Assembly: GCA_019096195.1 (NCBI GenBank)
Contig: JAGTXK010000055.1
Span: 186,001-250,000 of the forward strand
Direction of reading: 5' to 3'
Source: Boletus sp. NGJ
Lineage: Eukaryota > Basidiomycota > Agaricomycetes > Boletales > Boletaceae
DNA: 64,000 nucleotides
A program made the translations under genes and the position numbers. How positions within the stretch are numbered: the first letter of the stretch is position 1; every line of letters starts with the position of its first letter. This document shows positions 24,553-64,000 of this stretch, one piece after another. Under the pieces are notes generated by a model, which was not told where the DNA came from, did not search any database, and worked only from the letters and a program-made list of their open reading frames with translations.

Positions 24553-24676
24553 TATTTGTATGTATAGTATCTACTGGAAAAGAGGTGAGATGCTATGCTA
24601 CATTTGTTTGACACTCCAGTGGATCCTCAATGATATCGATGTCTAAGATATGCATGGATTATGGCGAAAAAAACAT

Positions 24677-25392: not shown

Positions 25393-25680
25393 GGTAGTTG
25401 CACACTCTGAGTGAATAATAGGTATGGGGATGGAAGACTGGAGTAGAGAGCGACGACGTCCCGACGCGCCTCAAATAGACGCGTCACGTCGGGGTTGGAA
25501 TCACGTCAATTCATACTGCGGCTGCCTCGCGTTCCAGCGCATCTACATATCACTAGGAAACCCGCGTAGCACAACCGTACTAATCCATATGTATGAGGAT
25601 ATCGTAGATATATCATCCGGAGTCGTGCTAGTATTACATGTAGATCCATTGTATAATGTTCGTGTAAGTATATCTTGTCA

Positions 25681-32755: not shown

Positions 32756-32876
32756 GATGGTAAACAGATAACCCAGAATATATTTCTAGGTTTCATATTG
32801 ACATACTTAGCTAAGTCCTCCCAATTACTGCAAAACATATTAGTATCCAACTTGTGCCACTACTACTACACCAAAA
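32756..32876. promoter_or_regulatory. Bidirectional promoter, VPS28 and NOL8-like gene
   Basis: Only 121 bp between divergent start codons, so 5' UTRs are very short or overlap the neighbouring gene. Confidence 0.5.
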
Positions 32877-37486: not shown

Positions 37487-37760
37487 TCGTGACGATAGAG
37501 CAGTCTGTAGATTGACACAGGACGTGTTGAGCAGGGCGGGGGAGTTCTGGTCGTAGATCCTTCTGAAAATCAATGTATACCTTGTAAATGTTGCACATGT
37601 ATCTGTCTATCTTCCACACTCCACATGTCGCAAAAAAAAAATACCAGTCACATCCATCTAAAGAGTCGTACCCTACAGTCAGGAAAAAAAGGCCTTTCTA
37701 GCGCTTTTGCTCCGTCACAATCCATGAAACCAGAATCACACTTTCTTTGAGGCGCAACGC

Positions 37761-40700: not shown

Positions 40701-42824
40701 CGTCCAAATCTTACCCCCTTCCTCTTCCTCCAACTCGGCAATCTCTCCCACGAGCGCCTCAAACACCCAAAACGTGTCCGCTTCAGCATGTGCCACACCA
40801 TCTTCATCTGTTTCCCCGACGAGTGCGCTGTAGAGCGGGACGAGCAACCAAGGGACGTGCGGCGATTGAACGGCCGGGTTTAGCATGCTGTGAATATAGA
40901 GAAGGCGTAAAAGGGCAGACAGATGGGCACGGTGTGCGGGGGGTGCATTGTACGCCTTGGAAGGGAGGAGCGTCGTCCGGTGACGCGGACGCCGAGAAGC
41001 GAGCGTGGTCGCTTCGGATGAAGGCGGGGGCGGGGGCGACGCTGGGTCCGACTCAAGACGGATCTCAGGGGTCTCACAAGTATCACCGTTGTTGAGGAGT
41101 GCAAGCCGTTTGTCGAGATTAGACGCGCATGGGATTTGGATTGTGTCAGGCGCGGTGGGGTCCAATAAGCATCGGCCTAGGTGGATGCTTTTCGGTTCGT
41201 TTCCGAGAAGGACAAACAAGTCCGGGGAGACGCGAAAGAGAGAGTCAGATATTCGGGCGATGAGCGCGTCAGTCGGGGAGAGGGGGTCAGTTGGGGAAGA
41301 CAGAGAAGCGAGGGGATCGAGAAGACGTCGGACGAGATCCTATCATGTAAATCAACTTGGATAGCTCAGAGGTTTTTTAAAAAAGGGTGGAGCAAGACGC
41401 ACGTAGTAACTGTCTCGCTGTTTCTGGCACTCCTTGGCCCATGTCGTTTTCAAGATCGGAAGGGTACCAAACAACAACCTGTCCATTTGATCTCAGTCCA
41501 CCACATCCACACGAAACGCAAAGATCTCACCTCCATATGCGGGGTCGCACCCATGATGGAACATCAGGAAGACCTATCATCAAAGTAACATCAGTCCACC
41601 GGCCTGGATTCGACCACGTGCGAGTAGGAATGACGTACCGCGTGCACATATTTCACGCAAACGTGGAAGGTCCACGATAGGCGACGAACCATCATCCACG
41701 CGCAGGATCGCCGAGATGACATTAAGTCTACATATGTGTGAAGATCAGAGCGGTTCAGGAAGCTCGGAGAGACAATGAGACATACAAATCTTCTCGGCGA
41801 GTTTCAGGAACCCACTTGATGTCGTGCGTTTGTGCAATTTCGACGAGATATTCGTCCATCTTCGAGGCCGTTGGCGGTGGGGAGGATAGTATTTGCATTA
41901 TCTGGATTATTTCAAGACCCAACCGATAGGACAGAAAGGCATTCCAGCGAAACGGGTGAAAGATATTAGAGGAAGGAGGGTACGCTGAGGCAAAGAAGGG
42001 GGCCTTACGCGTAGAGAGACGTGGTTGTTCCGACTCGCAGATGCCGTCTGAGCAAACGTTGGCCCTAACCGTTGGATGAGGACCTCTCTCACCGCACTCA
42101 GGTCTTAACCAGGACAGAATCAGATCAGAACGAACGGCGACGACGCGCTCTCGGATGGAGAACAGTGAACGATACCTACCTTCGGACTCTGTGCTCGGCG
42201 CTGCATGTATGATGCTCGCTGCAGCCTCGACTAGGGCGGGGCTCAACCGTGGTGGCTTTCTAAACGACCACGTTGACCCCCAATTCCAAGCAACCCAAAC
42301 GTCCACCACAACCATCAGCCACTTTTGAATAGTAACTTCCTCCGACCACTCACCCCATAGTACGACCGCCCCTTACGCCGTCCCTCTCCCCTAGCACCTC
42401 CCCATCCCCTTTCACATTCACATTCACCTCCAGCCCCAGCCCCAGCCCCAGCCCCAATCCCAGTCCAACCCCTCCCCCCAACCCGAGCTCCCCAACACGA
42501 CTCCCTACCACACCCACCAGCATCTCTAACTCCTCCAGCAAATCCCCCATCATGTCTTCCTGAATCAACGTCGCCGCTTTGGCGCGTGCGAGGGCGAGGT
42601 GACCCTGAGAGAGGCGCGCAGCAATGTCACGTCGCGTAAGTTGACCTTGTGAATCTTTGCGCTCTTGGAGTTGGCCGAGGCGTAGAGAGGTCGCTCGAAG
42701 GAGGGTCTGTGTGTGTCATGGCAGGTCGTTGGGTGATGTACGCATTGGACTGTGAGGACCAGCTAGAGAAACGTGTAGGTCGGAGTAGACTTGCCTTGAA
42801 TGCGACTGCATCCCAGTCTCCCAT
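37761..42824 (-). CDS. IST1-TBC fusion protein (ESCRT-III regulator joined to Rab-GAP-like domain)
   Basis: The start at 42824 gives MGDWDAVAFK, joined by a GC-AG intron (42707-42794) to TLLRATSLRLGQLQERKDSQ, GQLTRRDIAARLSQGHLALA and AATLIQEDMMGDLLEELEML, an IST1 domain. It continues with PPRLSPALVEAAASIIHAAP, DLSAVREVLIQRLGPTFAQT and TASKMDEYLVEIAQTHDIKW. A 58-bp intron then joins it in frame to LNVISAILRVDDGSSPIVDL and PRLREICARGLPDVPSWVRP, then RLLFGTLPILKTTWAKECQK, the start of a TBC1D13-type domain (later HAEADTFWVFEALVGEIAEL and YRWLAPLLTQTLPLSSVFPI). No ATG in frame exists between the two parts. The last roughly 800 residues are Ser/Pro-rich with a poly-Glu run. IST1 binds Vps4 and ESCRT-III; TBC domains act on Rab GTPases. 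The total is near 1,500 residues. Alternative splicing giving two proteins is possible. Confidence 0.78.
39826..39902 (+). repeat. Low-complexity TCT/TTC/TCC tract (poly-Glu on minus strand)
   Basis: Imperfect trinucleotide repeat coding the EEEEAEEEEAGEEEEAEEE-type run in the tail of the IST1-TBC protein. Confidence 0.85.
42429..42478 (+). repeat. Tandem CAGCCC repeat (Gly-Leu dipeptides on minus strand)
   Basis: About seven copies of a 6-bp unit, coding GLGLGLGLGLGLGL inside the IST1 part, between the third and fourth helices; beside it is a TTCACATTCACATTCACC repeat coding NVNV. Confidence 0.85.
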
Positions 42825-43194
42825 CGTGTCGATAGCGCCGGTACGTGAAGGCAAAAAGGTAAGAACGAGTAGTAAAAGTCGCAGCGGCCGTACTTGTTGT
42901 TACCACGAATGCATCAGACTATAAATTGGGAGGTCGCGAGTACATGTCAAATGATCGGCACTCACGGAGCTAAACCTGCCGGGGTACTACATAAGCAGAC
43001 CGTCACTGACAGTGCGCAGCGAAATTAAAACGTGAACGCGGCTTCAATGATTCAAGTCTTTTTGACATAGATTGCGATGCTACAAGTGTCGCGAGACATA
43101 TAAAACTTTTGTTCTACACCTTCATAATGGACTAGCGTATAAACGGTAAGAAAAAAAAAGTCCTAATACCAGGAACATGCAATGCATTTTAGTG
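42825..43194. other. Intergenic: IST1-TBC promoter
   Basis: No gene seen; holds the promoter of the fusion gene and the 3' UTR of the membrane protein gene. Confidence 0.4.
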
Positions 43195-44616
43195 CTACAA
43201 CAAATGAGCGGGAAGTGGCTTCAACAGTCTCGCTCGCGTGGGGCGTGTCGTGAAACTCCCTTCGGCGCCTTGCATCCCTCCCGGAGAGGAAGACAAGGGC
43301 ATCGTCGAGAGATGGCTCGAGGTCCCTCGGTGATCTTTGGGAGACTGTACATCCGTAACATCTAAGCTGAAGAATTGATTCTGAGGGCGCGCAGGAGAGG
43401 AGTGTGAGTATGGGTATGGGTATGAAGAGGGTATATGAGGATGGGATGAAGATGCATTGGTGGCGGGAGGGCGTGGCATGGATAACGTGAGTAGGGGGCG
43501 AAGATGAGGACCGTTGTCATGTTTGAATGCAGGAAGGGAGTAGTGTCGGCTAGGCACTGGGGGAAGTGGGCGGGGGGGTCGTTGACCAGTGTGCGGCAAG
43601 GATGGCATCGTCGACTGTCGGGGCGGTACGTTTGGCAAACTCGACTGATGCTGGGGGAGCGATGCTTGGCGAGCGTGAACCAAGGTAGGCAACACCAGTG
43701 GTCGAGGTGAAACGCTAGTATCGGTGTTTGAGCCATGCGCTACGAAAAACTTCTTTATTTTCTCGTTCCATGAGGAAAGGGAATCGGTAGAACCCGATTC
43801 GAGATCGACACCCGAACGGCGTTTGTATAGCATGGGCCCCACAGCAACCGGAGTGCGCGACTGGAGATAGACCACGACTGCAAAATAAGTCGAGTAGAAA
43901 CCGACTATGGTCCAAGACGAATCAGCAAGCAGCCTTATCAAAGATGAGCTCGGTGCTTACATATCGTAGGTATAATCCAACAAGCTATCATGGTATAGAC
44001 ACTGATGAGTTGGCAGATACCCAAGTCATCCGGAGCTAAGAAGAGAATTAGGTTAAAACATTTCCAGGTAGAGAGAAAATCAGGGGCTTACTTTGGTTAG
44101 GACATTGGATTTTAGGACCCCAGACGCTACCAGCCACGGCTGAACCTGCGATGCAACGGGTTGAGCTTGACAATCCACACTATTCTTTGCACTGATACGC
44201 ACCAACTTGCAGGACGAATAGAAGGAGCAAACGCGCCTTGTCCAACCACATACGGAACGGAACAAGGATACTAGACACAACTTATTAGCGATTGAGTCAG
44301 GTATGCGAAAAAGGGACCTACAGAATTGGTAACATGATGAGAGTAGTGGTGTTCGTAAGGATGAACAGAATCATCAACGATTCTAGCTGTACGTCAGATA
44401 CGAGGCACAAGAGCAGGGACAATGAAACGTACGACTGATTGGATCAGAAATGCTCCACCGAGTAAACATTTCGACGCATAGCAATATAAGCCACAGAAAA
44501 CTGAACATCATAATGCACGCTATATGGGGTGTGAACTGGTGAAGAAGTAGGCTTCATGGAATGAACTCACTGAAAGTGATTGCACGGATTCTAAAGAAGA
44601 GTGGAGATGGTTCCAT
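43195..44616 (-). CDS. Hypothetical multi-pass membrane protein
   Basis: Not recognised. The start at 44616 gives MEPSPLFFRIRAIT. After introns come hydrophobic helices: CIMMFSFLWLILLCVEMF, ESLMILFILTNTTTLIMLPI, and near 43,880-43,940 SSWTIVGFYSTYFAVVVYLQ; others are likely between, giving four to six spans. The last about 220 residues are a hydrophilic Pro/Ser-rich tail (LPPVPSRHYSLPAF, PHIPSSYPYPYSHSSP), probably cytosolic. Five or more introns. Divergent from the MCH1-like transporter gene. The layout of a membrane core and long disordered tail is common in lineage-restricted fungal proteins; I assign no function. Confidence 0.65.
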
Positions 44617-45119
44617 GATGGAAGTCGTAGTAGTATGACTGTGAAGAGTAGACAAGATCTCGCAGAGACCACAAGCGGGTTGACCAGCAACCGCCTCCAG
44701 AGACGGGCTTAAATATTGGATGGGAGGAAGTCCATCATCTTGTGGAACGTTATAAGTATCCACACTGTGGACAATTAAAACGTGCCAACGCTTTGGCTTG
44801 TCTTTTGTTCCCAACCTTGTACTTCAAGTTACCACAATACCAATTAGGATAAATAGCCCCTGAACACAAGCTTTCACGTCTTCTTTCCCTCCACCTTTGC
44901 GGGACGTGGACCTTGAAAAAAAATATTTTCCGGGTCCTAATTTGACGACGAACAAGCACCGAACGGTAGTCGGAGGGATGATCCAACTTCAAGTTACTGA
45001 GGTCGGTGGGTATGTGAACTCCGCGAACCGTTTCCAGTGTCCACAGCACTCAACTTGGTCTCCTTCTCCCCACCCACCAACAGCGCATGGTGGACCGTAT
45101 AGACTTTCCTTAACTATCC
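44617..45119. promoter_or_regulatory. Intergenic between divergent membrane-protein genes
   Basis: About 500 bp holding both promoters. No coding signature seen. Confidence 0.4.
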
Positions 45120-47054
45120 ATGTCTACCTCAACCCAACAGAGATCGATTCGTCCATCATACCTCCGCCGAGTGAGGCTCGCGCTTTTGTGCTTCTCTGTG
45201 GGCGCTAATGCGTTTGTCCCATTTCCAACTGGTGGACGCAACTTGACACTGATCGAGATTGTCCACCAGAATATGTGCCGGAGGTGTTTTCTGCTTTCCG
45301 ATCATTTCACCAGCATTGGTGGCACACTTGAAACTCACACAACCACAACTGACCACCATCGCCCTTGCGTGCGCTTCACTGCTCCCCCATCCATTCTCGT
45401 TTGCTTAGCTCACTCGTATATAGCGGTATGATGGGCCAATATCCCTTTGCAGCCTTCGTCGGCAAGATCCTTGATTACCATGGCGCCTGGGCGTGCTCCT
45501 TGATTTCCGCCTGTCTCTTCTCGGCAGGCTTTGGCCTTTTCGCTAACGAGATATCCAAGACTCCGGACACCGTCAGCCAACCCTCCACCTCTACATTCCA
45601 CAACCTCGTCATATTTTTCTTCATCGGTGGACTGGGTACTGTGTTCTCGTGCGTACACCCCCATCTCCCATTTCGGGTGTAATAATCCCGGCATGCTATG
45701 ATAGTTACTTCTCATCCGTCTTTGCCGCCTCGAAGAATTTCCCAAACTACATCGGGATTGCAGCAGGGACAAGCATGGCTCTCTTCGGTCTCTCACCCAC
45801 ATTCCTCTCCATACTCGCTGCCCGATATTTCTCATCCCCAGATGGCGAAATTGATATCACTCATTTCCTCCAATTCCTCGCTATACTCTGTGGATGCGTG
45901 CACCTCGTAGGAGGTTTCACTATGCATATCATACCCTCCGACTCCATTCAAGAATCCAAGTCGGCGGTTCCCGCAATTGACCCGGAAGTACCCAACGAAC
46001 GCACCGCGCTGCTTCCCAACAAGACCAACGGAAACGACGATGAGCACGACCAAGGTCAAGTTGATGTCGTTCCCGTGGCCGACGAATTCTCAGAATCCAA
46101 AAACAACGTGTTGGATCTAATATCCGACCGCAATTTTTGGGCCCTCGCCTTTATCGTGTTCGTCGTCCTTGGATCTGTAAGTTACTCCTTGCACTGACCG
46201 TGCTGGAACGTTAGTTTCGAGTCGTCTTCACTGATGCATTGGACAGTGCGAGATGATCATCTCTAACATCGGTACCATTGTTCTCTCCCTTTCGAATCAA
46301 ACCTCCGCCATTCCCACTTTCGTCGACACCCCTTCTACTGTCCTCACGACCGCGATCCAAGTCCGCATGCTTTCCCTCGCGAATACACTCTCCCGGCTCC
46401 TTGTTGGGCTTCTCGCGGACATTGTTTCGCCTGTGCCCTCTCGCGCCATAGATGGCAACCGTGGCTTCCTCGAGAAGCATCGTATCAGCAGAATTTTATT
46501 CCTGACATTATCCACAGCTATGCTTGTTTGCACCTACGCTTGGATGGTCATTGGCGTCAGAGAACAAGCAGACATATGGGCACTGAGGTACGTCCTCCCC
46601 CTCATCCCCCGACAAGATCTGACCATGTACGGTACAATACGCCGTGGCAGTATTGGCGCAGGTCTCGCGTATGGATGCGCGTTCACTGTTCTGTATGTCC
46701 CCGTCCCCGTCCCGCATTTTTTTTGCTCGCCATTGTCTCCCATGCTAATCGCTAACACACCACACCACACCACCCTACCACAGCCCTTCCCTCGTCTCCT
46801 CCATCTGGGGCCTCTCCAATCTCGGCCGCAACTACGGCATCATCACTTACGCCCCTTTCCTCGGCACCCCTGCCTTTTCTTACCTCTATGCCTTCATCGC
46901 TGCCGCCCGCGTCTCCGATTCCGACTCCAGTCCGGACGGGGTATGTCACGGACCGGTATGTTGGACGTTGACGTTCGAGGTGAGTGCGTTGGCTGCTGCG
47001 CTGGCATTTGGTTCGTCAGTGTACCTGTGGCGGGCGTGGAAGGGGCGCGTGTGA
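45120..47054 (+). CDS. MFS transporter, MCH1-like
   Basis: The start gives MSTSTQQRSIRPSYLRRVRL followed by the first membrane helix (ALLCFSVGANA). Further helices: MMGQYPFAAFVGKILDYHGA (with the MFS loop-type GKILDYHG), CSLISACLFSAGFGLFANE, FHNLVIFFFIGGLGTVF, FPNYIGIAAGTSMALFGLSP, FLQFLAILCGCVHLVGGFTM, FWALAFIVFVVLGSCEMIIS, LSLANTLSRLLVGLLADIVS, ILFLTLSTAMLVCTYAWMVI, and, across the last introns, SIGAGLAYGCAFTVLPSLVS, then GLSNLGRNYGIITYAPFLGT. It ends YLWRAWKGRV. A central cytosolic loop is acidic. Mch1 proteins resemble monocarboxylate permeases but show no proven monocarboxylate transport in yeast, so substrate stays open. Confidence 0.85.
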
Positions 47055-47656
47055 GTTCTGAATCCCACGAGCTAGAGAGCATTGAAGTTGGCGTTGGTGA
47101 TCGATTCGATCCACAACCATCCATTCCCACGAACTACGAGCCATCGTTACTACTAGAGATTGTATATAATCGTAATCATTGGCATGTCGTGAGTATAACA
47201 GCGCCCTCTGGGCATTCCTGGACTGGCTGCTGGATCCCCTCACACTGTCGACGTCTCGCGGGCAGCATGCATTACCCCATGTAGCTCCAACTGATAGGTA
47301 TGTGGTTCATTGGGACTGCCTTCACCGGATTTTGAGGTGAAGGTTGTATCCGGTCAGAAACTATTGGTTTCTCGCCGATCTCCAAGTTCCACTAATTTTC
47401 CGAGCGATAGTTCTCGAGCGCACATTCCATGTCATGAGCCAAGTAGATCTTCAAGTCGGGATAACGCCATTGCTTTTCCTTGACATTCGTAGCCTGAATG
47501 AAGCGAGATCTTGTCCATAATACGCAAATCCATCATAATTTGTACGTAGTCCTACATAAGCGTCCCAAGGATATATCGACCGGTCTACTTACCCCCGGGC
47601 CTGGTCCACACTGACCTACATACATGGCAACTTCACGCGAGACATCTCGCGGACAA
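47055..47656. other. Intergenic between two convergent transporter genes
   Basis: About 600 bp; both 3' UTRs; no gene seen. Confidence 0.45.
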
Positions 47657-50365
47657 TCAACTTCCCTTCCCTCCCTCCCGTCCGTCCGTGTCATCCTCAT
47701 TCCTCGCCACGGCTTCCTCCACCGTATCCCCAAGTCCCAATATCCGATCCGCCTCGGGAGATCCAGCCGCTGGGAGATCTTTGCGAAGTGACACTTGGAC
47801 GGGACTCTTACCCTCCTTGTACGCGATCGCAAAGATGATATCCATGTCTGTATGGGAAGAAGGAGAGGAGGAGAGAGTAGCAACATAAAGTGTGGATAAC
47901 AGCACGAAAAAAGAAACTTACCCTCGAGCGATCGTCCGGCCGTCTCTGGCATAAAGAAATAAATGACCGGTACAGCAGCCGCGTTCAACGCCGCAAACAC
48001 TTTTTTGTTGTTTATATTTATTTCATAAAGAATAATCCGACGGATCCGAGGAAGAAATTAAAGAACCGTGACATTGTCAGCACAGTCATAAAAACCAGAT
48101 TTCGATTCCGAAAGAAAAAGAAGATGGCGCGGGAGAGGTGGAATTGTAGCACGTGTAGATAAGTACTTACCCACGTAGGTCCCCCACGAGATCTCCGCAA
48201 ACGCCGGGCCGGTGATCATAACGACGACAAAATTGAACGTCCAATTGGATGCTGATTCCAATGGTCAGGGGTGATTGGCCTGGGACCCGGGAAAAGAAGT
48301 CAGAGTCAGACGGACGGACCTGTGCTCAGTGCGTTTGCTGGTGCCCTGATTTGTAACCCAACCACCTCGGCGCACTGTCCGATCATCCGTGAGTAAAACA
48401 CGCGGAGCGAAAAGGAGAGGAAGATATAAAAACGTACATAGAGCCATGCGACAGCCAACCACCCGATCGCGTGGAACGTATTGAACACGAACAACAACAC
48501 CGCGCTGATTATCTGCGTCGTGCTGTTATCGATGCTGCCCAGAATTGCTAACAAGACCATCGTGACGCCTTGACCGATCGTACCGACGAGCATGAGCTTC
48601 CGTCGACCGACGCGGTCGACGAGTGCGACGGCGATGAAGGAGGCGAAGAAATATTCGGTTCCATTGCATGCTGCGATGATACGAGAGTTGACGCTCGGGA
48701 TACCGAGGCGCTCGAAAAGGAGGGTCTTGGATAGACAGTTAGTAAAAATTGCTCATCAGTTGCGGCATCTTAGTCCTTACCGCATAGCTGAAGAACGTGG
48801 GTTAACCATCAAGCATGTCACGAAGAACGAATTTAGACATGGGGAAAAAAAACGCACTAAGTAATCAAGTTCACACCCGTGATCTGCTGACAACACTGGC
48901 ACACGACTGCAATGGCCGTCCTTCGGAAGTTCTGACTAGGGCCGCTGGTCAACAACTGCTTGAGAAAGGTGCTTTTTTTGTTGCCATCGCCCTTGTTTGC
49001 ACCGCTGCTTTCCATCTCCGCCACTTTGCACATGCCATGAAACGTACGCTGGACCGCAACGTCGGTGACGGGTTTGTCGTCGATCGCGGAGATGACAGCG
49101 AGTGCTTCCGCCCTCCGGCCCTTCTTGATGAGCCTGTTCAATGTGTGAGCAAGCCAAATTCAGTGAACATCGAGCTCCACAAGCTGACCAACGAGGTGAT
49201 TCGGGGAGCTGTGAACACCATAAGCTGGATTGTCCAAAGAGAACACGAATAGTGAGCATACGAAGGTGATTGAGATTGCCAGAGTTAATTCAAGTACTAT
49301 CTGGAGCGCAATAGGCACTCTCCATTGAGCAGATGACCAAGATAGCCAGAAACTGTATGTGTGCACCGATGAGCAGGCTGATTGCATCGGAAGCGTAATG
49401 TACTTACAATGCAAAGTCTAGCCACTAATCGGATGCAAGAAACGGGTGAGCAATGGGACACGAAACCATAGATATAGAATTCACATATCTCATTTGGAAG
49501 CTCAACTATCAGCGACATTCGAGGTCAAATAAACGAATTACGCTCACGAAAGTGTGACACCAAACGTGTTCATACATCCTTCTATGAGGACCAATGCCCC
49601 TCTGTTCTTTGCTGGAGAACATTCCGCTTGATAACTTGGGACGGTTGACGACTGCAAAGATTGGTTTCCGGGAGGTCAGGCATCGCAAATAATAAATAAA
49701 ACTGGGTTTCTTCCGCACGTTCAAACCATTTCCCACACCAGTCACTATTCTGGCTACCACGAGTTGAGCGTAGCTGTACGACGTGGCTTGGAGGATTGCC
49801 CCGATGACCATAATCGATGTGGCAAGCATGATTGTACGACGTCGACCAAGCCGATCGCCAACCCAGAATGCAGAAATCGCCCCCAACAGACAGCCGACTT
49901 CCTGTAACAACGATAATAATGAGCATAATTAAATGGGACGAGCCTTGATGCACTTACGTAGACGGCGACGACGAGACTTTGCAAAGCAGCAGCATTGGAG
50001 TTATTTGCCTTTACGACCACTTGCGGAAACACCTTTTCAAACTAGAAGCCTGGTCGTTATCGGGATGCTAGGGCGTCGGTGGGACCCACCTGGTTGGCAG
50101 TGATCAGAGCGGACATGACACCCTGGTCGTACCTGTAATTCCACCCTCAGCTTCTCGCACCTGAAGGGAAAAATATATCAACGCACCCAAACAAGGTCCA
50201 GGCGGTACCCGCCACGAAAATGACGGAGCCAACGAGCTTGTTACCACGCAGAGGAACCTTGTGCTGTGCACTTTCCAGCTGAAGGTCAGTAAAGCTCTGA
50301 GTCTCGGATCGTTTTTCATCAACGACCTCGATCAACTCTGGTGTTGAAATTTTGTGCGTGGACAT
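47657..50365 (-). CDS. MFS sugar transporter
   Basis: Sugar porter family signatures in order: YDQGVMSALIT after GTAWTLFG, EVGCLLGAISAFWVGDRLGR with the loop 2 DRLGRRRT motif, ATSYSYAQLVVARIVTGVGN, PESPRW at the start of the central loop, QCCQQITGVNLITYYA (helix 7 QQxxG), VALVDRVGRRKLM, TFHAIGWLAMTWLYAAEVVG, and PETAGRSLEDMD closing helix 12. The protein starts MSTHKISTPELIEVVDEKRS and ends in an acidic tail. About ten introns split it. Expected 12-helix plasma-membrane proton symporter or facilitator for a hexose or similar sugar; the substrate cannot be read from sequence. The 5' end lies only 167 bp from the visible limit of the inverted repeat, so its promoter may be partly duplicated beyond the right window edge. 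Confidence 0.9.
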
Positions 50366-50531
50366 GTGGAGTTAGAGGCCAGAAGGGGACCAGTTCCCCT
50401 CTCCATGCGTGTCACACTGGCGTATAAAAAGTCACCAGTTGTGAAAGTATGAGTATGAACAGCACTGGTACGCACACGTGCAGATGAGTCCTCTCGGCAG
50501 CTGACTCCAATGTCATTCCCATTGTCGGGGA

Positions 50532-52059
50532 TGGCCAGCCAACGAGATGCCCAGGGATCCCGGAAAATCGCACCCTGCAGAGCAGATTCGTGGTAGAAGA
50601 GAGAGAGAGAGAAACTCTATATTTGTATACCGCAAGAAGTGTGATGCCGAGTCCGAGTCGTTAGTACTATAGGATCGGCTTGGCAAGAATGGATTCGAGT
50701 TATTTTATGTAGATCAAGTTCTATTTAACGATGATTGTACTATCCATTCCTGTCTTGTGTGATTCTGTGATTTGGCCGCCCTACATGTGACTCACGGCCT
50801 TTTCTGAATGGCCCGGGCCAATCTCAAACTCTGTCCAACTCCTTCAGGTATACTAGCTCCCGTCCCACCGCACGAAGTGCACTGATATATTAGTAATGAA
50901 ATATCAGGAAACGAAAAGGAAAAGGCCACAATCATGAGCAAAGCTGCAGGACTCTATGATAGAATGTGTAATCTCTCTGGTATGTCTTATTGGCCATGTA
51001 ACTGAACTGTAACTTTCTTTGAAACGCACACTACCTGAACTAACAGTCAATGCAGCCATCTTCACCGTCACGGTTGTGGCGGCAGAGATCCCACCTGACG
51101 TTCCCACCTCAAGGCCTCATGTACCTCGCTGGAAGCTGAACTCACGTACCAATTGCAAACTACTGCAAGTGGTCGTTCCAGATTAGGAATCCCTTGCTTT
51201 CGGATCAAGTATTCAACACTAGTACTGCGGGGTAGTCCCGTAAAAATAGGTCTCGGAACTGAATCCACACGCATGAATACAAGACACGTCGTCTCGCTTT
51301 CCACTCGCAGAGCAGATCTAGTAGGGAAGGTCACCCAATCCAATCCAACCTTGTCGATGCGAAGGACAGCCAATATCACGATATAGAGACAAGGACACGA
51401 CTCATCCACTGATGCTGGCATCAACTCTTTGGATACTGTGCAGTACCTCAGACTCTTCAGAATCTTCTTTCGATCAGTGAATTTGAGGTAGGTGGGAATC
51501 ACTTTCAAGTTGTCCATCAATGTCAATCGCTGATTGTGGCAACACTAGGAAGACCTCTATAGCCTGAGCTGTACAGGTCTTTCCTGCGCCGGAACTCTAA
51601 ATTATAGAACAAAACCTTGCATAATACCCATGACCCATGTCTGCGGAGAAGTTCCGATCGTCGCTCGAGATATCCAATCAAAGCGTTGAAAGCAATGTCT
51701 TGATAAGGATGCGTCAACGCGAACATTAATTCTTCTCGCATCGTGTTTGAAGGGGCCTCGACCCGGGATTACAAGGTGCACGATTAAGGGATGAACGGAA
51801 CGGGAAGTGTATACTACATCGAAAGTCACCCTGTAGTGAACGTGAGGAGACACTAGCATTAGGGTGAAGGATTTGGTGTGCAGTGGGTCATGTACTGACT
51901 AAATCGTCGTACGTGATCACACACCATGTACCGACTCGATTTCGCAGTATGATCTGTGCTCCCGCACTGCTCATAGGTGCCAGGCCCTCATCTAGTAAGC
52001 GATCTCGAGGGGCATGTCGTTGTTCGTAACAAGGCCGCCTAACGCGCTGCTTTTATACT
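50532..52059 (+). other. Unassigned outer part of left arm
   Basis: About 1.5 kb with no recognised gene. Minus-strand frames such as REELMFALTHPYQDIAFNAL (near 51,740) and NLKVIPTYLKFTDRKKIL (near 51,500) look protein-like but have no family match that I know, and the intervening sequence does not splice clearly. The mirror copy is at 62,473-64,000. Confidence 0.5.
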
Positions 52060-52610
52060 AGGACTCTATTGTAGGCTTGACGCGTGTGTTGCACCCGTAC
52101 TACGCGCATAAGGTTTGATCATGCGATCGCAAGTCAACATGAAACGAGAGACTACTAAACCTGGAAGTGATATCTTCTCTCTTGATATATGCTTCGGAAG
52201 GCATAGGAGGCAACTTGGAGGGGTCTCAGTGATGACGAATTGATAAGTCGACCCTTGGCCTTACTTCACTGCCAGCAAGAACCTAGTGTGGGCGGTAGGT
52301 CGACATTTCATTCCCTTCATCCTAATCTGTAAGTGCACAATCGTGGCACCGTCTTTTCATTTCAACCGATTGTACCTCAAATATATTTTCTAGATTATCA
52401 CCAAACGTGCTATTCTGAACGAGAAACCTACCGACCCAAAGCAGGATCAAAGTTCAAATGCAGGGGAAGGTGCTGGGGAGTTTACCTTTGTTGCGTATCG
52501 TTGACAACTTGACATTGACTGACGTGACCCCATACATGAAATGTCAGGCACTCGTTCCTCGATCGTTGACAGTGGCCCACGTGTGTTTCCTGAATCCTCA
52601 AGTATGCCAT
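52060..52610 (+). pseudogene. Degenerate cytochrome P450 (left arm)
   Basis: The DNA aligns with the intact P450 downstream in two blocks. The first (about 52,120-52,250) matches the exon ending GLTDDEL and its donor GTAAGT. The second (about 52,328-52,600) matches the exon DYHPKYYSEPEVYRPSRWYA with the introns on both sides and the start of the heme exon. The I-helix (AGxDT) and ExxR parts between them are missing and several codons are changed, so it cannot give a working enzyme. It is a decayed tandem copy that predates the inverted duplication, because both arms carry it unchanged. Confidence 0.85.
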
Positions 52611-53159
52611 CTACTTATGCCAAGAATGGCGGATTCCAAGGGCTGGAAAATTATCCTTGCAGTAAAATTCCGATGTGTTAAGGTATGGTCTGCGGGCATA
52701 AGACCTTGTCGCACAAGGTTAGTAACAGGCATATTTGACAGCTCTATAAAAGCCCAGAGCTACGCAGACCACCAAGCGCAATGATCATCATCAGACTGGA
52801 TCATTATTCCTCGCAATGCACATTCTCCGCGTTCTAGCTTCGGGTGGGGGCACTTGTAGTGTTGAATCAACAATATCTGCATTTATGTCAAACTCCGTGA
52901 GCACTTTCTCCATGATGTTAGAGCGGCGACATGCCACTGCATATGTTCGGGATAAAGAACTGCCAAGTCTCGGCTAAGTTGGCAGATTGGCACCGCTTGA
53001 GTACTGTAACTAGGTGAACGACATGTGCGTAAATCTCCAAAGTTTTATGTGTCATACAAACATCGCAGTCTCCTCAAGCCTTTGACAAGCTATTACTGAG
53101 GCCCAACCCAAACTCAGTCACATAAAGCTAGTCCGTCTTGCGTCTTTCGAGCGCTACAG

Positions 53160-55810
53160 TTCCCTATGCACAGCACCATGCCAATGGCCTCGCCTTCGGC
53201 CTTATTCAGCTCTCATATCTTTGCACCAAGGCGCTCTTGGTGAGTGTAGTCGCTGTATATGATTGGGCCAGCCAGACGCATCCCAACATCGCCTCCCAGA
53301 TGTGTCCACGTGGACGAAGACAGTTGCCTTCCTTGGTGCCCTTGTCGTCATATCGCGTGTCCTCAAGCTCGTCCAAGGCATCCATGTACGTTGTGTTTGT
53401 GACAGCCGGGTTGGGCTCATGCTACAGAGACACAGAGTGTTGACAATGACAACAAGGGTATCGACTCACTCCCTGGATTCCGCATCCCATTTGCTCCGTG
53501 TGTCCCCTATCAGGTAGCCACCCTACCCCTTACGTGCTGGAACCCCAGTGAGAGCCTTCCCGACCAACATGTATCTCTCCGTTTTCGTCTTTTTGATCAG
53601 GAGTTCCCGCCAGATTTTACGTTCGTGTGGAGATGGCGGACGAATGGAAACGGTGCGTGATGCATTGTAGCCCCTGATTACTCCCTGACTTCCATTACCC
53701 TTGTACCAGTCTACCACCTCTTTGGTCGCGATACTGTGTCATTCGTACCGTTTCTCGCTGGTTCCCCGACGTTATTCACTCGATCCCTGGAAGTAGGAAG
53801 GCAGAGTTCTTGCGGGAGGGTCGGACGCGTTCGACAAGTCCCCAGTCACTTGGAAGGTCCCTTTCTCGTCAGTCTACAAGGCATCTCCCAAAAGCCCGTT
53901 GCAGATCTAGCTCACATCATCCATATCACGGAACAGATTCTGGGGTCCGAACATCGTCGATGCATACGGTGACCAATGGCGAAAACACCGAAAGGTTTCC
54001 AGTCCTGCGTTCGGCAACAACACGTGTGTAGACAACCAAATTTCAAGTGCGAATGAGCGATGCTGAATTGTTGTCGTCACTGACTTGAAGGTTTGCCAAT
54101 GTTTGGGATGCCTCGTGCAAACTGTTTGCGGAAATGACGACCGCGGAAGACTGGGCGTCGAAAGGCGTCATCGAGGTGCCCAGCATCGATTCGGTCACGT
54201 TTAAGGTGCTCTCATTCTCCTCCTGGTACTATAAATGACTAACCTACACATATCTTCGTGGCAGTATTCGCTCACCATTTTTACGTCGGTTGGATTTGGA
54301 GTGCCGTTGACGTGGTCTAAGCCACCTAGTCAAGGCGACGAACTCAGCGTGCTAGAATGTCTGGACATCATCACGAAAACATTCATGCTTACTGTAGTTC
54401 TCCCTTCGTGGGCATGGAAGCTACCATTTAAATGGTCAGCATGTCTCGAAACAATGATGAAGCACACTTGTTTTCTGACAACGACAGCAGGATTCGACAC
54501 ACGCGTCGAGCCTACGATGCCATGCGCGCATTCTTGCGATCCCAAGTCAGCACAATACAACAGACAATTCGATCCGAAGCAGCCAACGGAGACGCTAAAC
54601 GCGGCAATGACCTCTTCTCACTTTTGATCCAAGCTTCGGAAGACGTAGGAAGCAAGAGAGGCCTCACTGACGACGAATTGGTAAGTTTGCTTCTCTGTCA
54701 GCAAGGGGGGGTATGGGTGGTAGGATAACTTTTCTTTTATTCGAGCTAGATTGGCGACGTGTTCTCGTTCTTGTATGCTGGTCACGGTAGGATATTTCTG
54801 CTAGTCTACTGAATTCTATACTCACCTGGGGTTTAGATACTGCGGCCCACGCCTTGTCAGCAACCCTTGCGTTCCTCGCTCTGAATTTTGACATCCAAGA
54901 CGAACTTGTAACACAAGTGCGAGAGGTGACACAAGGGAGAGACGACGACAGACTGGTAAGCGTGTATGCACTACAAGTCGCGTCACCTTTTGGTCTGACT
55001 GTGGGACGCATTGTCAGCTTTATGAAGACTATAGCAAACTTGACAAAGTACTCGCGGCATTCTATGAAGCTATTCGATTGTTCCGTGAGTCACTTGATCA
55101 GGTCCATTAGCGACGTGCTCTGAACTTACCGTGGACCATTGTAGCTCCTGGACCGATCGTCCCCCGTGAAGCCAAGCACGACACGGTCCTCAACATCTCT
55201 GATACCAATGAGCCAAAGATGATAGTCGTAAAAAAAGGTACCCAGGTAAGTCACCCAATGTCTGATTGCGATCATCAATTCCATCGGTGTTGATGTGAAC
55301 CAACGCCAAAGGTCGTGGTTGACTTCGTCGGTATCCGTAAGTACACAATCGCGACATCGTCATTTCATTTCAATGGATGTCATTCCAATTATCTCGTCTA
55401 GATTATCACCCAAAATACTATTCCGAACCAGAGGTCTACCGACCCTCGCGGTGGTATGCCAAACAGGAGGATCAAAGTCCGGATGCAAAGGACGGTGGCT
55501 TTACCGGGTTCAGCTTTGGTGCGTATCGCAGCGGACGTGGCGCCCTGTTTGACATCGGCTGATGTGACCCCCGCTATATTAAACGTCAGGTCCTCGCGCC
55601 TGTATCGGGCGTAAGTTCGCGACGACGGAAGCCGTGTGTTTCCTTGCGCATCTACTCCGTGACTGGCGGGTCGAACCCTTACTGGTGCGTCGCGCCGGAG
55701 TGGGCACGATAGAGAGCCTGGGTGAATGGCGGGACCGTGTTTTCCAGGCGGATGTGCTTGTGGCATTGGGTATCAAGGATCATGGTATCCGTTTTGTGCG
55801 GCGGAGGTGA
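53160..55810 (+). CDS. Cytochrome P450 monooxygenase (left arm copy)
   Basis: Heme-thiolate oxidase, probably anchored in the ER by VAFLGALVVISRVLKLVQG. The start is unresolved between about 53,160 and 53,310. Conserved blocks in order: SLPGFRIPFAP, WGPNIVDAYGDQWRKHRKV with SSPAFGNN (helix C WRKHRK), the I-helix YAGHDTAAHAL split by an intron after GGTCACG, EAIR (ExxR), HPKYYSEPEVYRPSRW, and the heme loop FSFGPRACIGRKFA split by the intron 55,519-55,589. It ends GIRFVRRR. About ten introns. One oddity: between EVGRQ and VLAGGSDAFDKSP (about 53,804) the frame shifts by one base, and the right arm has the same. If real, the gene is inactive; if an error or unusual splice, it is a normal P450 of about 530 residues. 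The pathway is unknown. Confidence 0.83.
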
Positions 55811-56114
55811 GAAGGAGATCTAGGACTGGGATGAGGAGCTTGGTGTCGATGACAGTAGTAGGGACTTGCAATCCTAATTTTATTACTACCTGCCATTACA
55901 CTTTCCATCGGATTTGCTCGAGACTGCGACACCGTATGAATACGTCAACTCGAGGTGTGCCGAGGTAGTAACACTTATAGGCTTTATTTGTGCTGAAATT
56001 ACCTCCGGCTTCGCTTGACCGAACCCTGCATTGGGGGTACAATTTGGTCTCGGAATTGTCAAGAGTCGACGTGGCTGTGCTTTCCAGTTGTACCGAGTTT
56101 GTACTCCCGCCATC
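55811..56114. promoter_or_regulatory. Spacer upstream of EXO70
   Basis: Single-copy sequence between the left P450 stop and the EXO70 start; must hold the EXO70 promoter. No gene seen. Confidence 0.5.
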
Positions 56115-58532
56115 ATGGACGATGAAAGCGCAGAGATTGAGCTAGTAAGTTTCATTACAAGCATAAATTTAACTTGACGTTTTTCGACTGATGTACTGCA
56201 CATTCAGCTTGAGCAGAACCTAAACAAGACTCGTCAGATATCGCAACGGATGATATGTACGTGGACCGACTCTGCGTTCGCGATCAAGGCTCATCTTGCT
56301 AGCTATATTGACCAACTTTGATTCCCGCCTGGTCAAGTTGGAGAAATCAATACTTCCACTATACACCGCAACCCAGAGACTCAACTTCCGATCACACAGT
56401 ACGTATTTGGAGTCGTGTTTGAGGCATCATTCTCAGAGTTACGAGCAGACATTGATCGTGCCCTATTGAAGATTGACGAAGTGGCGAGCAGCCACGAAGG
56501 CATTGCTGAAGAGGAGGGTCTCGTTCTACGAGGGTTCGATTCCCTTGCTTCTGTTCCAGAGCTGCCGTGTGACCGTGAACTTCTCTAGTCCTCAGGCCGG
56601 ACAACTGGAAATATACATCGATACTCTCGCGCGCTTGAATGCGGCAATCGCGTTCAAATCGTCAGATGAAGATTCTCGTGAAAAGGTGTGTCTCGTATCA
56701 TCATGATGCTTTGCTACTGGGTCGACTACGACTACCACCCCCACAGGCCCGTCTCGTCGAGACTGGTGCAAAGAGGCTGACCCAGTTGTATACAAAACTT
56801 GTTGCTGAAGGATCATCGGGTTCGCCTCCAATAGCAGGTCTTGACTTCACTCCCACGACATTCCCACCCGTGCTACTTCTCCATCTCAAACCTCTCGTAG
56901 CATTCTTGCGTAGCCTTCCCCTGCCTTCCACCCACCCATCACATCCTGCCGGTCAAGTCATTCTTGCCACCTTAAGGGAGGCACAGCGTGGTTACGCTGA
57001 CATGCGTGGAACGTGGAATCGCAAGTCCCTAGAAACGCATGCCAAGCGAGTCGTCGACCGCGCGGAAACGTTGGATGGTGTTATTGCAGGTAAGGAATTC
57101 GGCACCTGGGTGGAGAACCTCCTCCGTATTGCAGAGGTAGGTGGATGGTTTGTGGCTGTATTGCGTTGAGATTAACGTCCGTAGACCGAATATAGCCTTC
57201 TTACCGACCTCGCACCGCTCACTATGCCCTCTCTCTTGGCATCCACTTACGATACCCTCCTCAACCCCCTCCTCGCACTCTTCACAGATACACTCTCCTC
57301 CTTGACTGCTATCATCAAACGCTCTCTTCATAAATACACCTTCCATGCTCTCGCTACCTACTCTGCTCTTTCGGTATCCCAGAGCCGCTGGGAAATTCTC
57401 ATGAGCAGGAGAGGAGAAGGGCGGAGAGACACGAACGAGCTCCGGGATGGACTTAACTCTGTTAGGAGCGTATGTTTGAGAACCTTTCCAGAATTTTTGG
57501 CCGATTTGAAGTTGGCAGCTGCGGGACCTGGAAAGGGTGGAGAATTAGGCGTGAGCCTGGCCGATTTTGCTATCTCTGTAAGTGTTTTGAATTTATGTCA
57601 TGGCTTTCCATTTACTTGTGTCAGACCGTACAATATCTGGATAGAATCCCAGAAGTACAGGAGGCGGTTGGATCAGCGCTTCTTGCGCTAGGGGATGGAA
57701 ACTGGAAGATGGGTGAGGGTAAGCAAGTCGGAAAAGCCCAAAAGGTTTCGGTGATCGAAGTGACCGAGAAGGTCGTCCTTCAACATTACACCTGTTCGTC
57801 CTTCCTTTTACTTACACGACTGCTCCCGGCCACTTATTTGTGATATTTTTCGAAGTCGACATCGTCAACACGACTGTGAACAGTTTGACAACCCTGTCTC
57901 GCACACAACGTCGTGGCGCATTTGGATCTATATTCTTACTCAACAATATCTCCTATTTTTATTCTCGCCTGGTGCTAAAACCGACGCATCCGGGGCTAGT
58001 AGATCTCGTAACAAAGCCCACTGCAGATACACTCATGTCGGCTTTTCGAACCGCGAAAGCAGGTTATTTCGATGCCAACTTCTCGCCTTTGATGCAAGCG
58101 TTGAGCGAGGATCGTGAGAAGGAAAAGGTAGGCAGTAGTGCGTGGAAAGCGGCCACGAAGGAAAAGTTTACGCGCTTTTATGACCTTTTGGATGAACTCG
58201 GGGAAAGGCATCGGATGGCGAAGGTGTTGGAGGAAGAGGAGGAAGGGAAGAGGGCGATCGCAGAGGAGGCTGTCAAGCTCGTTGTACCGAGTTTGCAGCG
58301 CTTCGTTCAGAAGCAGAGAGATAAGGAGTTCAGCAAAAGTGAAGCTTTTCCCCTTTCTTCTTTTGTGATGCCGTGCGTTTGTGCTGACGTCCGTCTTGCT
58401 TTGCGACAGACCCACAAAAGTGTGAGTATAGGAACTCGGGCTAGGATTGCAGATGCTGATACACTTGTCCCTACAGATATCAAGCTGTCACCGGAAGAAG
58501 TGGAGACGCAAATACGTGCCTTCTACAAGTAA
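56115..58532 (+). CDS. EXO70: Exocyst complex component EXO70
   Basis: Exocyst subunit that tethers secretory vesicles to the plasma membrane through PI(4,5)P2 and Rho GTPases, needed for polar growth. The start gives MDDESAEIELLEQNLNKTRQ, then ILTNFDSRLVKLEKSILPLY. Middle parts include QLEIYIDTLARLNAAIAFKS, KRLTQLYTKLVAEGSSG and ETLDGVIAGKEFGTWVENLL. The Exo70 C-terminal helices read FGSIFLLNNISYFYSRLV, LMSAFRTAKAGYFDANFSPL and KFTRFYDLLDELGERHRMAK, ending LSPEEVETQIRAFYK. About eight introns. It looks intact and fills the spacer of the inverted repeat, with 305 bp to the left P450 stop and 190 bp to the right one. It is the only single-copy gene in the last 13 kb. Confidence 0.93.
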
Positions 58533-58721
58533 ATTTTTCGACAAGTACATTACTGCAGGGAAGTTTACATATCCATGATACATGAGACTAGCACCAGCTT
58601 GGCCACTACAGCGAAACACGTCTATTATTATAGTAATCCCAACCAACAGCTGTACAACCCCCCCGTCCATTGTGGTATCAAGTTTGTTTTGTTTTTCATC
58701 CCGCCCCTCATCCCCTCCATC

Positions 58722-61372
58722 TCACCTGCGCCGCACAAGACGGATACCATGATCCTTGATACCCAATGCCACAAGCACATCCGCCTGGAAAACACGGTCC
58801 CGCCATTCACCCACGCTCTCTATCGTGCCCACTCCGGCGCGTCGCACCAGTAAGGGTTCGACCCGCCAGTCACGGAGTAGATGCGCAAGGAAACACACGG
58901 CTTCCGTCGTCGCGAACTTACGCCCGATACAGGCGCGAGGACCTGACGTTTTATATAGCGGGGGTCACATCAGCCGATGTCAAACAGGGCCCCACGTCCG
59001 CTGCGATACGCACCAAAGCTGAACCCGGTAAAGCCACCGTCCTTTGCATCCGGACTTTGATCCTCCTGTTTGGCATACCACCGCGAGGGTCGGTAGACCT
59101 CTGGTTCGGAATAGTATTTTGGGTGATAATCTAGACGAGATAATTGGAATGACATCCATTGAAATGAAATGACGATGTCGCGATTGTGTACTTACGGATA
59201 CCGACGAAGTCAACCACGACCTTTGGCGTTGGTTCACATCAACACCGATGGAATTGATGATCGCAATCAGACATTGGGTGACTTACCTGGGTACCTTTTT
59301 TTACGACTATCATCTTTGGCTCATTGGTATCAGAGATGTTGAGGACCGTGTCGTGCTTGGCTTCACGGGGGACGATCGGTCCAGGAGCTACAATGGTCCA
59401 CGGTAAGTTCAGAGCACGTCGCTAATGGACCTGATCAAGTGACTCACGGAACAATCGAATAGCTTCATAGAATGCCGCGAGTACTTTGTCAAGTTTGCTA
59501 TAGTCTTCATAAAGCTGACAATGCGTCCCACAGTCAGACCAAAAGGTGACGCGACTTGTAGTGCATACACGCTTACCAGTCTGTCGTCGTCTCTCCCTTG
59601 TGTCACCTCTCGCACTTGTGTTACAAGTTCGTCTTGGATGTCAAAATTCAGAGCGAGGAACGCAAGGGTTGCTGACAAGGCGTGGGCCGCAGTATCTAAA
59701 CCCCAGGTGAGTATAGAATTCAGTAGACTAGCAGAAATATCCTACCGTGACCAGCATACAAGAACGAGAACACGTCGCCAATCTAGCTCGAATAAAAGAA
59801 AAGTTATCCTACCACCCATACCCCCCCTTGCTGACAGAGAAGCAAACTTACCAATTCGTCGTCAGTGAGGCCTCTCTTGCTTCCTACGTCTTCCGAAGCT
59901 TGGATCAAAAGTGAGAAGAGGTCATTGCCGCGTTTAGCGTCTCCGTTGGCTGCTTCGGATCGAATTGTCTGTTGTATTGTGCTGACTTGGGATCGCAAGA
60001 ATGCGCGCATGGCATCGTAGGCTCGACGCGTGTGTCGAATCCTGCTGTCGTTGTCAGAAAACAAGTGTGCTTCATCATTGTTTCGAGACATGCTGACCAT
60101 TTAAATGGTAGCTTCCATGCCCACGAAGGGAGAACTACAGTAAGCATGAATGTTTTCGTGATGATGTCCAGACATTCTAGCACGCTGAGTTCGTCGCCTT
60201 GACTAGGTGGCTTAGACCACGTCAACGGCACTCCAAATCCAACCGACGTAAAAATGGTGAGCGAATACTGCCACGAAGATATGTGTAGGTTAGTCATTTA
60301 TAGTACCAGGAGGAGAATGAGAGCACCTTAAACGTGACCGAATCGATGCTGGGCACCTCGATGACGCCTTTCGACGCCCAGTCTTCCGCGGTCGTCATTT
60401 CCGCAAACAGTTTGCACGAGGCATCCCAAACATTGGCAAACCTTCAAGTCAGTGACGACAACAATTCAGCATCGCTCATTCGCACTTGAAATTTGGTTGT
60501 CTACACACGTGTTGTTGCCGAACGCAGGACTGGAAACCTTTCGGTGTTTTCGCCATTGGTCACCGTATGCATCGACGATGTTCGGACCCCAGAATCTGTT
60601 CCGTGATATGGATGATGTGAGCTAGATCTGCAACGGGCTTTTGGGAGATGCCTTGTAGACTGACGAGAAAGGGACCTTCCAAGTGACTGGGGACTTGTCG
60701 AACGCGTCCGACCCTCCCGCAAGAACTCTGCCTTCCTACTTCCAGGGATCGAGTGTATAACGTCGGGGTACCAGCGAGAAACGGTACGAATGACACAGTA
60801 TCGCGACCAAACAGGTGGTAGACTGGTACAAGGGTAATGGAAGTCAGCGAGTAATCAGGGGCTACAATGCATCACGCACCGTTTCCATTCGTCCGCCATC
60901 TCCACACGAACGTAAAATCTGGCGGGAACTCCTGATCAAAAAGACGAATACGGAGAGATACATGTTGGTCGGGAAGGCTCTCACTGGGGTTCCACCACGT
61001 AAGGGGTAGGGTGGCTACCTGATAGGGGACACACGGAGCAAATGGGATGCGGAATCCAGGGAGTGAGTCGATACCCTTGTTGTCATTGTCAACACTCTGT
61101 CTCTCTGTAGCATGAGCCCAACCCGGCTGTCACAAACACAACGTACATGGATGCCTTGGACGAGCTTGAGGACACGCGATATGACGACAAGGGCACCAAG
61201 GAAGGCAACTGTCTTCGTCCACGTGGACACATCTGGGAGGCGATGTTGGGATGCGTCTGGCTGGCCCAATCATATACAGCGACTACACTCACCAAGAGCG
61301 CCTTGGTGCAAAGATATGAGAGCTGAATAAGGCCCAAGGCGAGGCCATTGCCATGGTGCTGTGCTTAGGGAA
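58722..61372 (-). CDS. Cytochrome P450 monooxygenase (right arm copy)
   Basis: Mirror of the left P450, transcribed towards EXO70, so the two P450s and EXO70 lie in a convergent trio. All conserved blocks of the left copy are present: YAGHDTAAHAL, EAIR, and FSFGPRACIGRKFA. Coding differences from the left copy are few, for example FLAGTPTLYTRS against FLAGSPTLFTRS, and GIRLVRRR at the end. It shares the one-base frame problem near 60,728. An ATG near the upstream end of the left copy (53,166) is lost here by a T/A difference, but I do not rely on it as the start. Confidence 0.82.
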
Positions 61373-61921
61373 CTGTAGCGCTCGAAAGACGCAAGACGGA
61401 CTAGCTTTATGTGACTGAGTTTGGGTTGGGCCTCAGTAATAGCTTGTCAAAGGCTTGAGGAGACTGCGATGTTTGTATGACACATAAAACTTTGGAGATT
61501 TACGCACATGTCGTTCACCTAGTTACAGTACTCAAGCGGTGCCAATCTGCCAACTTAGCCGAGACTTGGCAGTTCTTTATCCCGAACATATGCAGTGGCA
61601 TGTCGCCGCTCTAACATCATGGAGAAAGTGCTCACGGAGTTTGACATAAATGCAGATATTGTTGATTCAACACTACAAGTGCCCCCACCCGAAGCTAGAA
61701 CGCGGAGAATGTGCATTGCGAGGAATAATGATCCAGTCTGATGATGATCATTGCGCTTGGTGGTCTGCGTAGCTCTGGGCTTTTATAGAGCTGTCAAATA
61801 TGCCTGTTACTAACCTTGTGCGACAAGGTCTTATGCCCGCAGACCATACCTTAACACATCGGAATTTTACTGCAAGGATAATTTTCCAGCCCTTGGAATC
61901 CGCCATTCTTGGCATAAGTAG

Positions 61922-62472
61922 ATGGCATACTTGAGGATTCAGGAAACACACGTGGGCCACTGTCAACGATCGAGGAACGAGTGCCTGACATTTCATGTAT
62001 GGGGTCACGTCAGTCAATGTCAAGTTGTCAACGATACGCAACAAAGGTAAACTCCCCAGCACCTTCCCCTGCATTTGAACTTTGATCCTGCTTTGGGTCG
62101 GTAGGTTTCTCGTTCAGAATAGCACGTTTGGTGATAATCTAGAAAATATATTTGAGGTACAATCGGTTGAAATGAAAAGACGGTGCCACGATTGTGCACT
62201 TACAGATTAGGATGAAGGGAATGAAATGTCGACCTACCGCCCACACTAGGTTCTTGCTGGCAGTGAAGTAAGGCCAAGGGTCGACTTATCAATTCGTCAT
62301 CACTGAGACCCCTCCAAGTTGCCTCCTATGCCTTCCGAAGCATATATCAAGAGAGAAGATATCACTTCCAGGTTTAGTAGTCTCTCGTTTCATGTTGACT
62401 TGCGATCGCATGATCAAACCTTATGCGCGTAGTACGGGTGCAACACACGCGTCAAGCCTACAATAGAGTCCT
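61922..62472 (-). pseudogene. Degenerate cytochrome P450 (right arm)
   Basis: Exact reverse complement of the remnant at 52,060-52,610; no base differs between the two remnants. Confidence 0.85.
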
Positions 62473-64000
62473 AGTATAAAAGCAGCGCGTTAGGCGGCCT
62501 TGTTACGAACAACGACATGCCCCTCGAGATCGCTTACTAGATGAGGGCCTGGCACCTATGAGCAGTGCGGGAGCACAGATCATACTGCGAAATCGAGTCG
62601 GTACATGGTGTGTGATCACGTACGACGATTTAGTCAGTACATGACCCACTGCACACCAAATCCTTCACCCTAATGCTAGTGTCTCCTCACGTTCACTACA
62701 GGGTGACTTTCGATGTAGTATACACTTCCCGTTCCGTTCATCCCTTAATCGTGCACCTTGTAATCCCGGGTCGAGGCCCCTTCAAACACGATGCGAGAAG
62801 AATTAATGTTCGCGTTGACGCATCCTTATCAAGACATTGCTTTCAACGCTTTGATTGGATATCTCGAGCGACGATCGGAACTTCTCCGCAGACATGGGTC
62901 ATGGGTATTATGCAAGGTTTTGTTCTATAATTTAGAGTTCCGGCGCAGGAAAGACCTGTACAGCTCAGGCTATAGAGGTCTTCCTAGTGTTGCCACAATC
63001 AGCGATTGACATTGATGGACAACTTGAAAGTGATTCCCACCTACCTCAAATTCACTGATCGAAAGAAGATTCTGAAGAGTCTGAGGTACTGCACAGTATC
63101 CAAAGAGTTGATGCCAGCATCAGTGGATGAGTCGTGTCCTTGTCTCTATATCGTGATATTGGCTGTCCTTCGCATCGACAAGGTTGGATTGGATTGGGTG
63201 ACCTTCCCTACTAGATCTGCTCTGCGAGTGGAAAGCGAGACGACGTGTCTTGTATTCATGCGTGTGGATTCAGTTCCGAGACCTATTTTTACGGGACTAC
63301 CCCGCAGTACTAGTGTTGAATACTTGATCCGAAAGCAAGGGATTCCTAATCTGGAACGACCACTTGCAGTAGTTTGCAATTGGTACGTGAGTTCAGCTTC
63401 CAGCGAGGTACATGAGGCCTTGAGGTGGGAACGTCAGGTGGGATCTCTGCCGCCACAACCGTGACGGTGAAGATGGCTGCATTGACTGTTAGTTCAGGTA
63501 GTGTGCGTTTCAAAGAAAGTTACAGTTCAGTTACATGGCCAATAAGACATACCAGAGAGATTACACATTCTATCATAGAGTCCTGCAGCTTTGCTCATGA
63601 TTGTGGCCTTTTCCTTTTCGTTTCCTGATATTTCATTACTAATATATCAGTGCACTTCGTGCGGTGGGACGGGAGCTAGTATACCTGAAGGAGTTGGACA
63701 GAGTTTGAGATTGGCCCGGGCCATTCAGAAAAGGCCGTGAGTCACATGTAGGGCGGCCAAATCACAGAATCACACAAGACAGGAATGGATAGTACAATCA
63801 TCGTTAAATAGAACTTGATCTACATAAAATAACTCGAATCCATTCTTGCCAAGCCGATCCTATAGTACTAACGACTCGGACTCGGCATCACACTTCTTGC
63901 GGTATACAAATATAGAGTTTCTCTCTCTCTCTCTTCTACCACGAATCTGCTCTGCAGGGTGCGATTTTCCGGGATCCCTGGGCATCTCGTTGGCTGGCCA
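62473..64000 (-). other. Unassigned outer part of right arm
   Basis: Identical mirror of 50,532-52,059. No recognised gene; continues past the window end. Confidence 0.5.

Follow-up and report, generated by a model that had tools for sequence, protein, structure and literature searches.

The window, that is, the whole stretch of 64,000 bp that was analysed (C22:186001-250000), belongs to a contig of 2,424,109 bp (C22), one of the 141 contigs of a 32.8-Mb assembly, and lies inside an inverted duplication at C22:60194-426350, in which two arms of approximately 181.6 kb flank a spacer of 2,897 bp. The left arm (C22:60194-241817) was paired with the right arm (C22:244715-426350) by sampled matches, not end to end, and the extent of the arms is therefore that of the paired samples, with the gaps between them, such as C22:103001-150400, lying outside the comparison. 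Apart from the spacer the window consists entirely of arm sequence, and within it a left position x is paired with the right position 114532-x; 48,286 of the 55,817 left-arm positions in the window were checked against their partner, and for the remainder the pairing is inferred. The main features, in window coordinates, are as follows.

1..55817, + strand: left arm of the giant inverted duplication, beginning outside the window at about C22:60194 (gapless mirror match)
55818..58714, no strand assigned: spacer of 2,897 bp, present at a single place in the assembly (assembly search)
57840..58532, + strand: coding stretch for an Exo70 C-terminal domain, within the spacer (Pfam PF03081, E 2.1e-14)
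58715..64000, - strand: right arm, running on to about C22:426350 (mirror match)

Seven open reading frames were scanned against Pfam at E 0.001 and five of them were without a family, the other two being the Exo70 stretch and a sugar transporter domain stretch at 49509-49910 on the - strand (PF00083, E 2e-13). Interrupted reading frames, together with the Exo70 stretch and the size of the genome, would point to a eukaryote and probably to a fungus. At its outer end, about C22:60194, the arm coincides with the edge of a dispersed repeat for which five further exact places of 610 bp were found, one of them in the mirror arm, besides many diverged copies; the inner arm ends do not fall at such a repeat. 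Positions 1-2100 of the window belong to a dispersed family with copies of approximately 77-81% identity on C22, C114 and C31.

Substitutions between the arms

It had been claimed, in a sequence-only reading of this DNA, that 14 differences between the arms show an identical + strand base in both arms, and all 14 were confirmed, eight of them with C and six with T. The alignment was extended to 78,680 aligned arm columns, corresponding to 43% of the arm, which contained 45 substitution columns; 33 of these were counted and 12 were set aside, nine of them in or touching a scrambled patch of 60 bp and three at the inner edge. Outside the inner edge, 20 further substitutions of the S/W type (C/G or A/T) were found, with the left member inside the window at nine and outside it at eleven, and all 20 have the pair C/C or T/T on the + strand. 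The site at C22:65283, which touches the patch, was dropped from these, leaving 19 further sites and 33 counted overall. The sites within the window are listed below.

53167..53776, + strand: cluster 1, ten sites, namely 53167 T, 53181 C, 53197 C, 53431 C and 53537 C, followed by 53583 T, 53684 C, 53720 C, 53763 T and 53776 T
60756..61365, - strand: partners of cluster 1 in the right arm, with identical + strand bases
55541..55718, + strand: cluster 2, namely 55541 C, 55580 T, 55690 T and 55718 C
58814..58991, - strand: partners of cluster 2 in the right arm
55793..55813, + strand: inner arm edge, with three rule-breaking mismatches
947, + strand: further site, T/T (C22:186947), partner beyond the window
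5214 and 5997, + strand: further sites, both C/C (C22:191214 and 191997)
28507, + strand: further site, T/T (C22:214507)
35488..36733, + strand: further sites 35488 T/T, 35815 C/C, 35873 C/C and 36733 C/C
39877, + strand: further site, T/T (C22:225877)

Outside both the patch and the inner edge, each of the 19 further substitutions is C/C or T/T on the + strand, so that the 33 counted sites, whose class and direction are observed directly, carry C in 19 cases and T in 14; among them, in 43% of the arm with patch and edge aside, there are no transitions and no A/C or G/T changes. The columns that were set aside are of a mixed composition, those of the patch (C22:65224-65283) comprising five transitions, three A/C changes and one C/G change, and those of the inner edge one transition, one G/C and one A/T. 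The latter three were added when BLAST extended the arm to 55817, beyond the 14 differences originally listed, and all lie within the last 25 bp of the arm: 55793 is T against C, the transition, while 55804 is G/G and 55813 is A/A on the + strand. With the edge included in the BLAST alignment, the rule is followed by 14 of the 17 mismatches in this stretch. When the exact pattern around one C/G site was searched for throughout the genome, it was found at four places, all within these arms, the two left copies carrying C and the two right copies G (in the left reading).

That transitions normally dominate, as the sequence-only reading also assumed, holds for real repeats of this genome. Four near-identical repeat alignments, pooled from ten that were listed, contain 244 transitions, 50 A/C or G/T changes and 65 changes of the S/W type (n = 359), i.e. 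an S/W share of 18%. If sites are independent, and with the 18% share and half of these S/W changes having the pyrimidine on the + strand, the chance that 14 of 14 substitutions are of this kind is approximately 2.5e-15, and for 33 of 33 it is 3.8e-35 (about 4e-35). The sites are clustered, 18 of the 32 neighbouring pairs being within 150 bp where 1.9 would be expected, and there are thus fewer independent events and the chance figures overstate the case, although in our view the overstatement is too small to matter.

A probable fixed letter rule at mixed positions

Judged from the sequence, the differences between the arms are very probably not biological, and would be the outcome of a fixed letter rule applied at mixed positions according to the direction of the contig. 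Both arms would rest on identical mixed evidence, either a single assembled path written out both ways or the pooled reads of two real copies, and at positions with two bases a step reading the contig in its written direction would pick C over G and T over A. The IUPAC codes S and W are their own complements. Under a fixed letter rule only such self-complementary pairs (C/G and A/T) need show between copies in opposite directions; positions of the R, Y, M or K kind would be resolved identically whichever way the contig is read and would stay invisible, and what remains to be seen would be C/G and A/T positions alone, with the pyrimidine on the + strand in both arms. The step may have consisted of IUPAC codes that were later flattened, or of a program for consensus or polishing that breaks ties by letter order, two routes that give the same result and that sequence alone cannot separate.

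In agreement with this mechanism, the opposite-direction copies differ by C/G and A/T alone at 33 of the 33 counted sites, and one fixed letter per pair stands on the + strand at all of them, the set-aside edge sites being G/G and A/A. Copies in the same direction are provided by the start of the contig (C22:1-60193) and C75:79870-140064, which are near identical in the samples compared; in approximately 11.3 kb, compared in pieces, they differ by three substitutions (A/G, T/G and T/C), none of the S/W type, a number too small to judge by. C75 is about 227 bp longer than C22 at the repeat junction. C50:136000-145999 and C35:125702-135701 match over 10 kb in opposite directions with 0 differences. 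The presence of such long, near-exact copies elsewhere in the assembly, this pair and that of C22 and C75, favours the explanation; against it, C50 and C35 are without sites of the expected kind, and so are the exact opposite copies of the 610-bp repeat. No IUPAC code or N was found in the window or in the tabulated loci, which contain only A, C, G and T.

Some differences between the arms are of another kind. Outside the patch there are five indels, one of 9 bp at C22:61637 and four of 1 bp at C22:66196, 66211, 66358 and 161744; a letter rule was considered as their source and rejected, no single order fitting all five. Nine more indel columns, at the ends of comparison blocks (70000 to 103000), come from a one-base offset in the cutting of the blocks and are excluded. 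In the patch itself (C22:65224-65283) one right-arm repeat copy bears the bases of the neighbouring copy. A direct repeat of about 820 bp with copies 97% alike (C22:61642-62448 and 65196-66016) carries this patch, and in the right arm the second copy holds a short tract of first-copy bases. A single consensus placed twice should leave no indels or other substitutions between the arms, and the arms do not pass this test; the indels and the patch thus mean that the arms were edited separately at some point or derive from two real copies. The earlier proposal that the arms are one collapsed sequence is consequently borne out only in part: the class of substitution that it predicts was found, with patch and edge aside, at 19 of 19 sites in arm sequence new to it, but the arms also differ by five indels, within the patch and at the edge. 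That true differences between the arms are hidden, as was also proposed, is plausible. In favour of the letter rule are the clustering of the sites and the position of some of them in sequence with further copies, where reads could mix; against it, searches with cluster 2 and with window positions 35300-36900, which hold four sites (35488-36733), yielded no further copy.

A third copy and the order of letters

The end of another contig (C49:46190-46869) is a third copy of window positions 53096-53803, at 90% identity. Once C is preferred to G and T to A, there are by our own derivation just two strict letter orders, C>G>T>A and T>A>C>G, under which R, Y, M and K positions stay hidden. Between the left arm and C49 there are 43 differences, of which C>G>T>A fits 42 and T>A>C>G fits 9, and in five control pairs C>G>T>A fits 30/54, 73/142, 27/47, 189/345 and 87/161 (51-57%). 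At 34 columns G or C in the left arm faces A or T in C49, the reverse being seen at 1, and all 29 gap columns in this alignment are in C49; among eleven control alignments the G/C lean is near even in ten (p 0.17 or more) and 158 vs 120 in one (p 0.026). The C49 differences thus look like the same letter order at work, although they are not a clean proof, as a C49 end that is decayed or rich in errors would likewise be depleted of G and C and carry many deletions.

There are eight C/G or A/T columns at which C49 departs from two arms that agree with each other, and nine C49-aligned sites at which the arms themselves disagree; at the latter C49 matches the left arm in nine of nine, where pooled alleles predict about half. 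Two forms of read mixing were considered and rejected. Mixing of C49 reads into both arms fits 42 of the 43 differences, but predicts a differing right arm at the eight columns, where it does not differ. Mixing into the left arm only fits the stretch aligned to C49, but predicts visible transitions elsewhere, and none were found in the compared arm outside the patch and edge. Two sites with paralogues add to the question of which arm is odd: at C22:161409 four of four paralogues side with the left arm, and at C22:186947 the left-arm T occurs in none of four (A, C, C and A), two of which have the right-arm A. Over the nine C49 sites and these two, the right arm is odd at ten and the left at one. 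A rule for mixed positions permits either arm to be odd, even if a ratio of ten to one is more uneven than it would lead us to expect.

Alternative explanations and what the pattern means

The reading originally proposed, in which one string of IUPAC consensus is placed both ways and S is turned into C and W into T, is a special case of the letter rule set out above and, taken literally, falls just short of an even prospect; it predicts all 33 counted sites, yet the five indels, the patch at C22:65224-65283 and the inner-edge mismatches are left unaccounted for, and the codes themselves are absent from the window and the tabulated loci. With confidence clearly below even, it may instead be supposed that a real and very recent inverted duplication of 181 kb exists, the reads of whose arms were pooled in consensus or polishing. 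This supposition shares the base-choice step with the preferred explanation and differs from it on the existence of the duplication. It is favoured by the spacer being single-copy in the assembly, by the different sequence beyond the two outer arm ends, by inner ends that are free of a dispersed repeat, and by the terminal 25 bp of the arm on its inner side, where three mismatches break the rule and reads could be anchored in the spacer. On the other hand, the arm ends on its outer side at the border of a repeat that occurs in many other places, a usual location for a mis-join, and other long, near-exact copies occur between contigs.

Biological origins fare far less well. A real palindrome in which the + strand forms a hairpin, and repair equalises the arms and leaves C:C and T:T mismatches, would indeed account for 33 of 33 counted sites, each of which would be C:C or T:T in such a hairpin, and C:C mismatches are poorly repaired; it is nonetheless very unlikely. 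It requires hairpins of one strand alone; C:T mismatches might also be expected to persist, and none occur among the counted sites; and T:T mismatches are well repaired. A search of the literature on hairpins and mismatch repair returned nothing that matched this idea by title. That we are dealing with a true 181-kb palindrome, folding on one strand, the differences of which mark a strand-specific blind spot of repair for C:C and T:T, appears more improbable still. Ordinary mutation in one arm after duplication is given practically no credence: in its favour the right arm is odd at the nine C49-aligned sites, but 0 of 33 changes are transitions, the direction is fixed on the + strand and the left arm is odd at C22:186947, while mutation confined to one arm does not allow both arms to be odd; it is the substitution spectrum that, in our view, rules this candidate out.

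A fixed letter choice at mixed positions, the preferred explanation, can be set beside several known phenomena. Draft assemblies may contain repeats that were collapsed or duplicated falsely, and these have in common with this locus the near-identical long copies, an arm end at a dispersed repeat and odd signals at some positions, whereas here the remaining differences bear a strand-dependent letter signature, of which no published account was found in the open-licence literature. Assemblers, variant callers and polishers may output an IUPAC consensus with two-letter mixed positions, as envisaged here, but in the present sequence no codes are seen and their flattening is a step that we infer. 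Foldback artefacts of long reads, the subject of PMC12870357, also join an inverted copy to its source, and the present case departs from them in its 181-kb arms, its 2.9-kb spacer and its single class of counted substitutions.

In conclusion, the original observation is correct and extends beyond the sites for which it was made, and the differences between the arms have most likely arisen through the processing of the data. This offers a quick test that can be made from finished sequence, in that a real inverted repeat should show all classes of substitution, and a pooled or collapsed one C/G and A/T changes alone, fixed by strand. Should the explanation be true, further differences, in larger number, lie hidden between these arms. 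Dating the duplication or inferring gene conversion from the arms would mislead, because the differences that are visible look like choices made by software.
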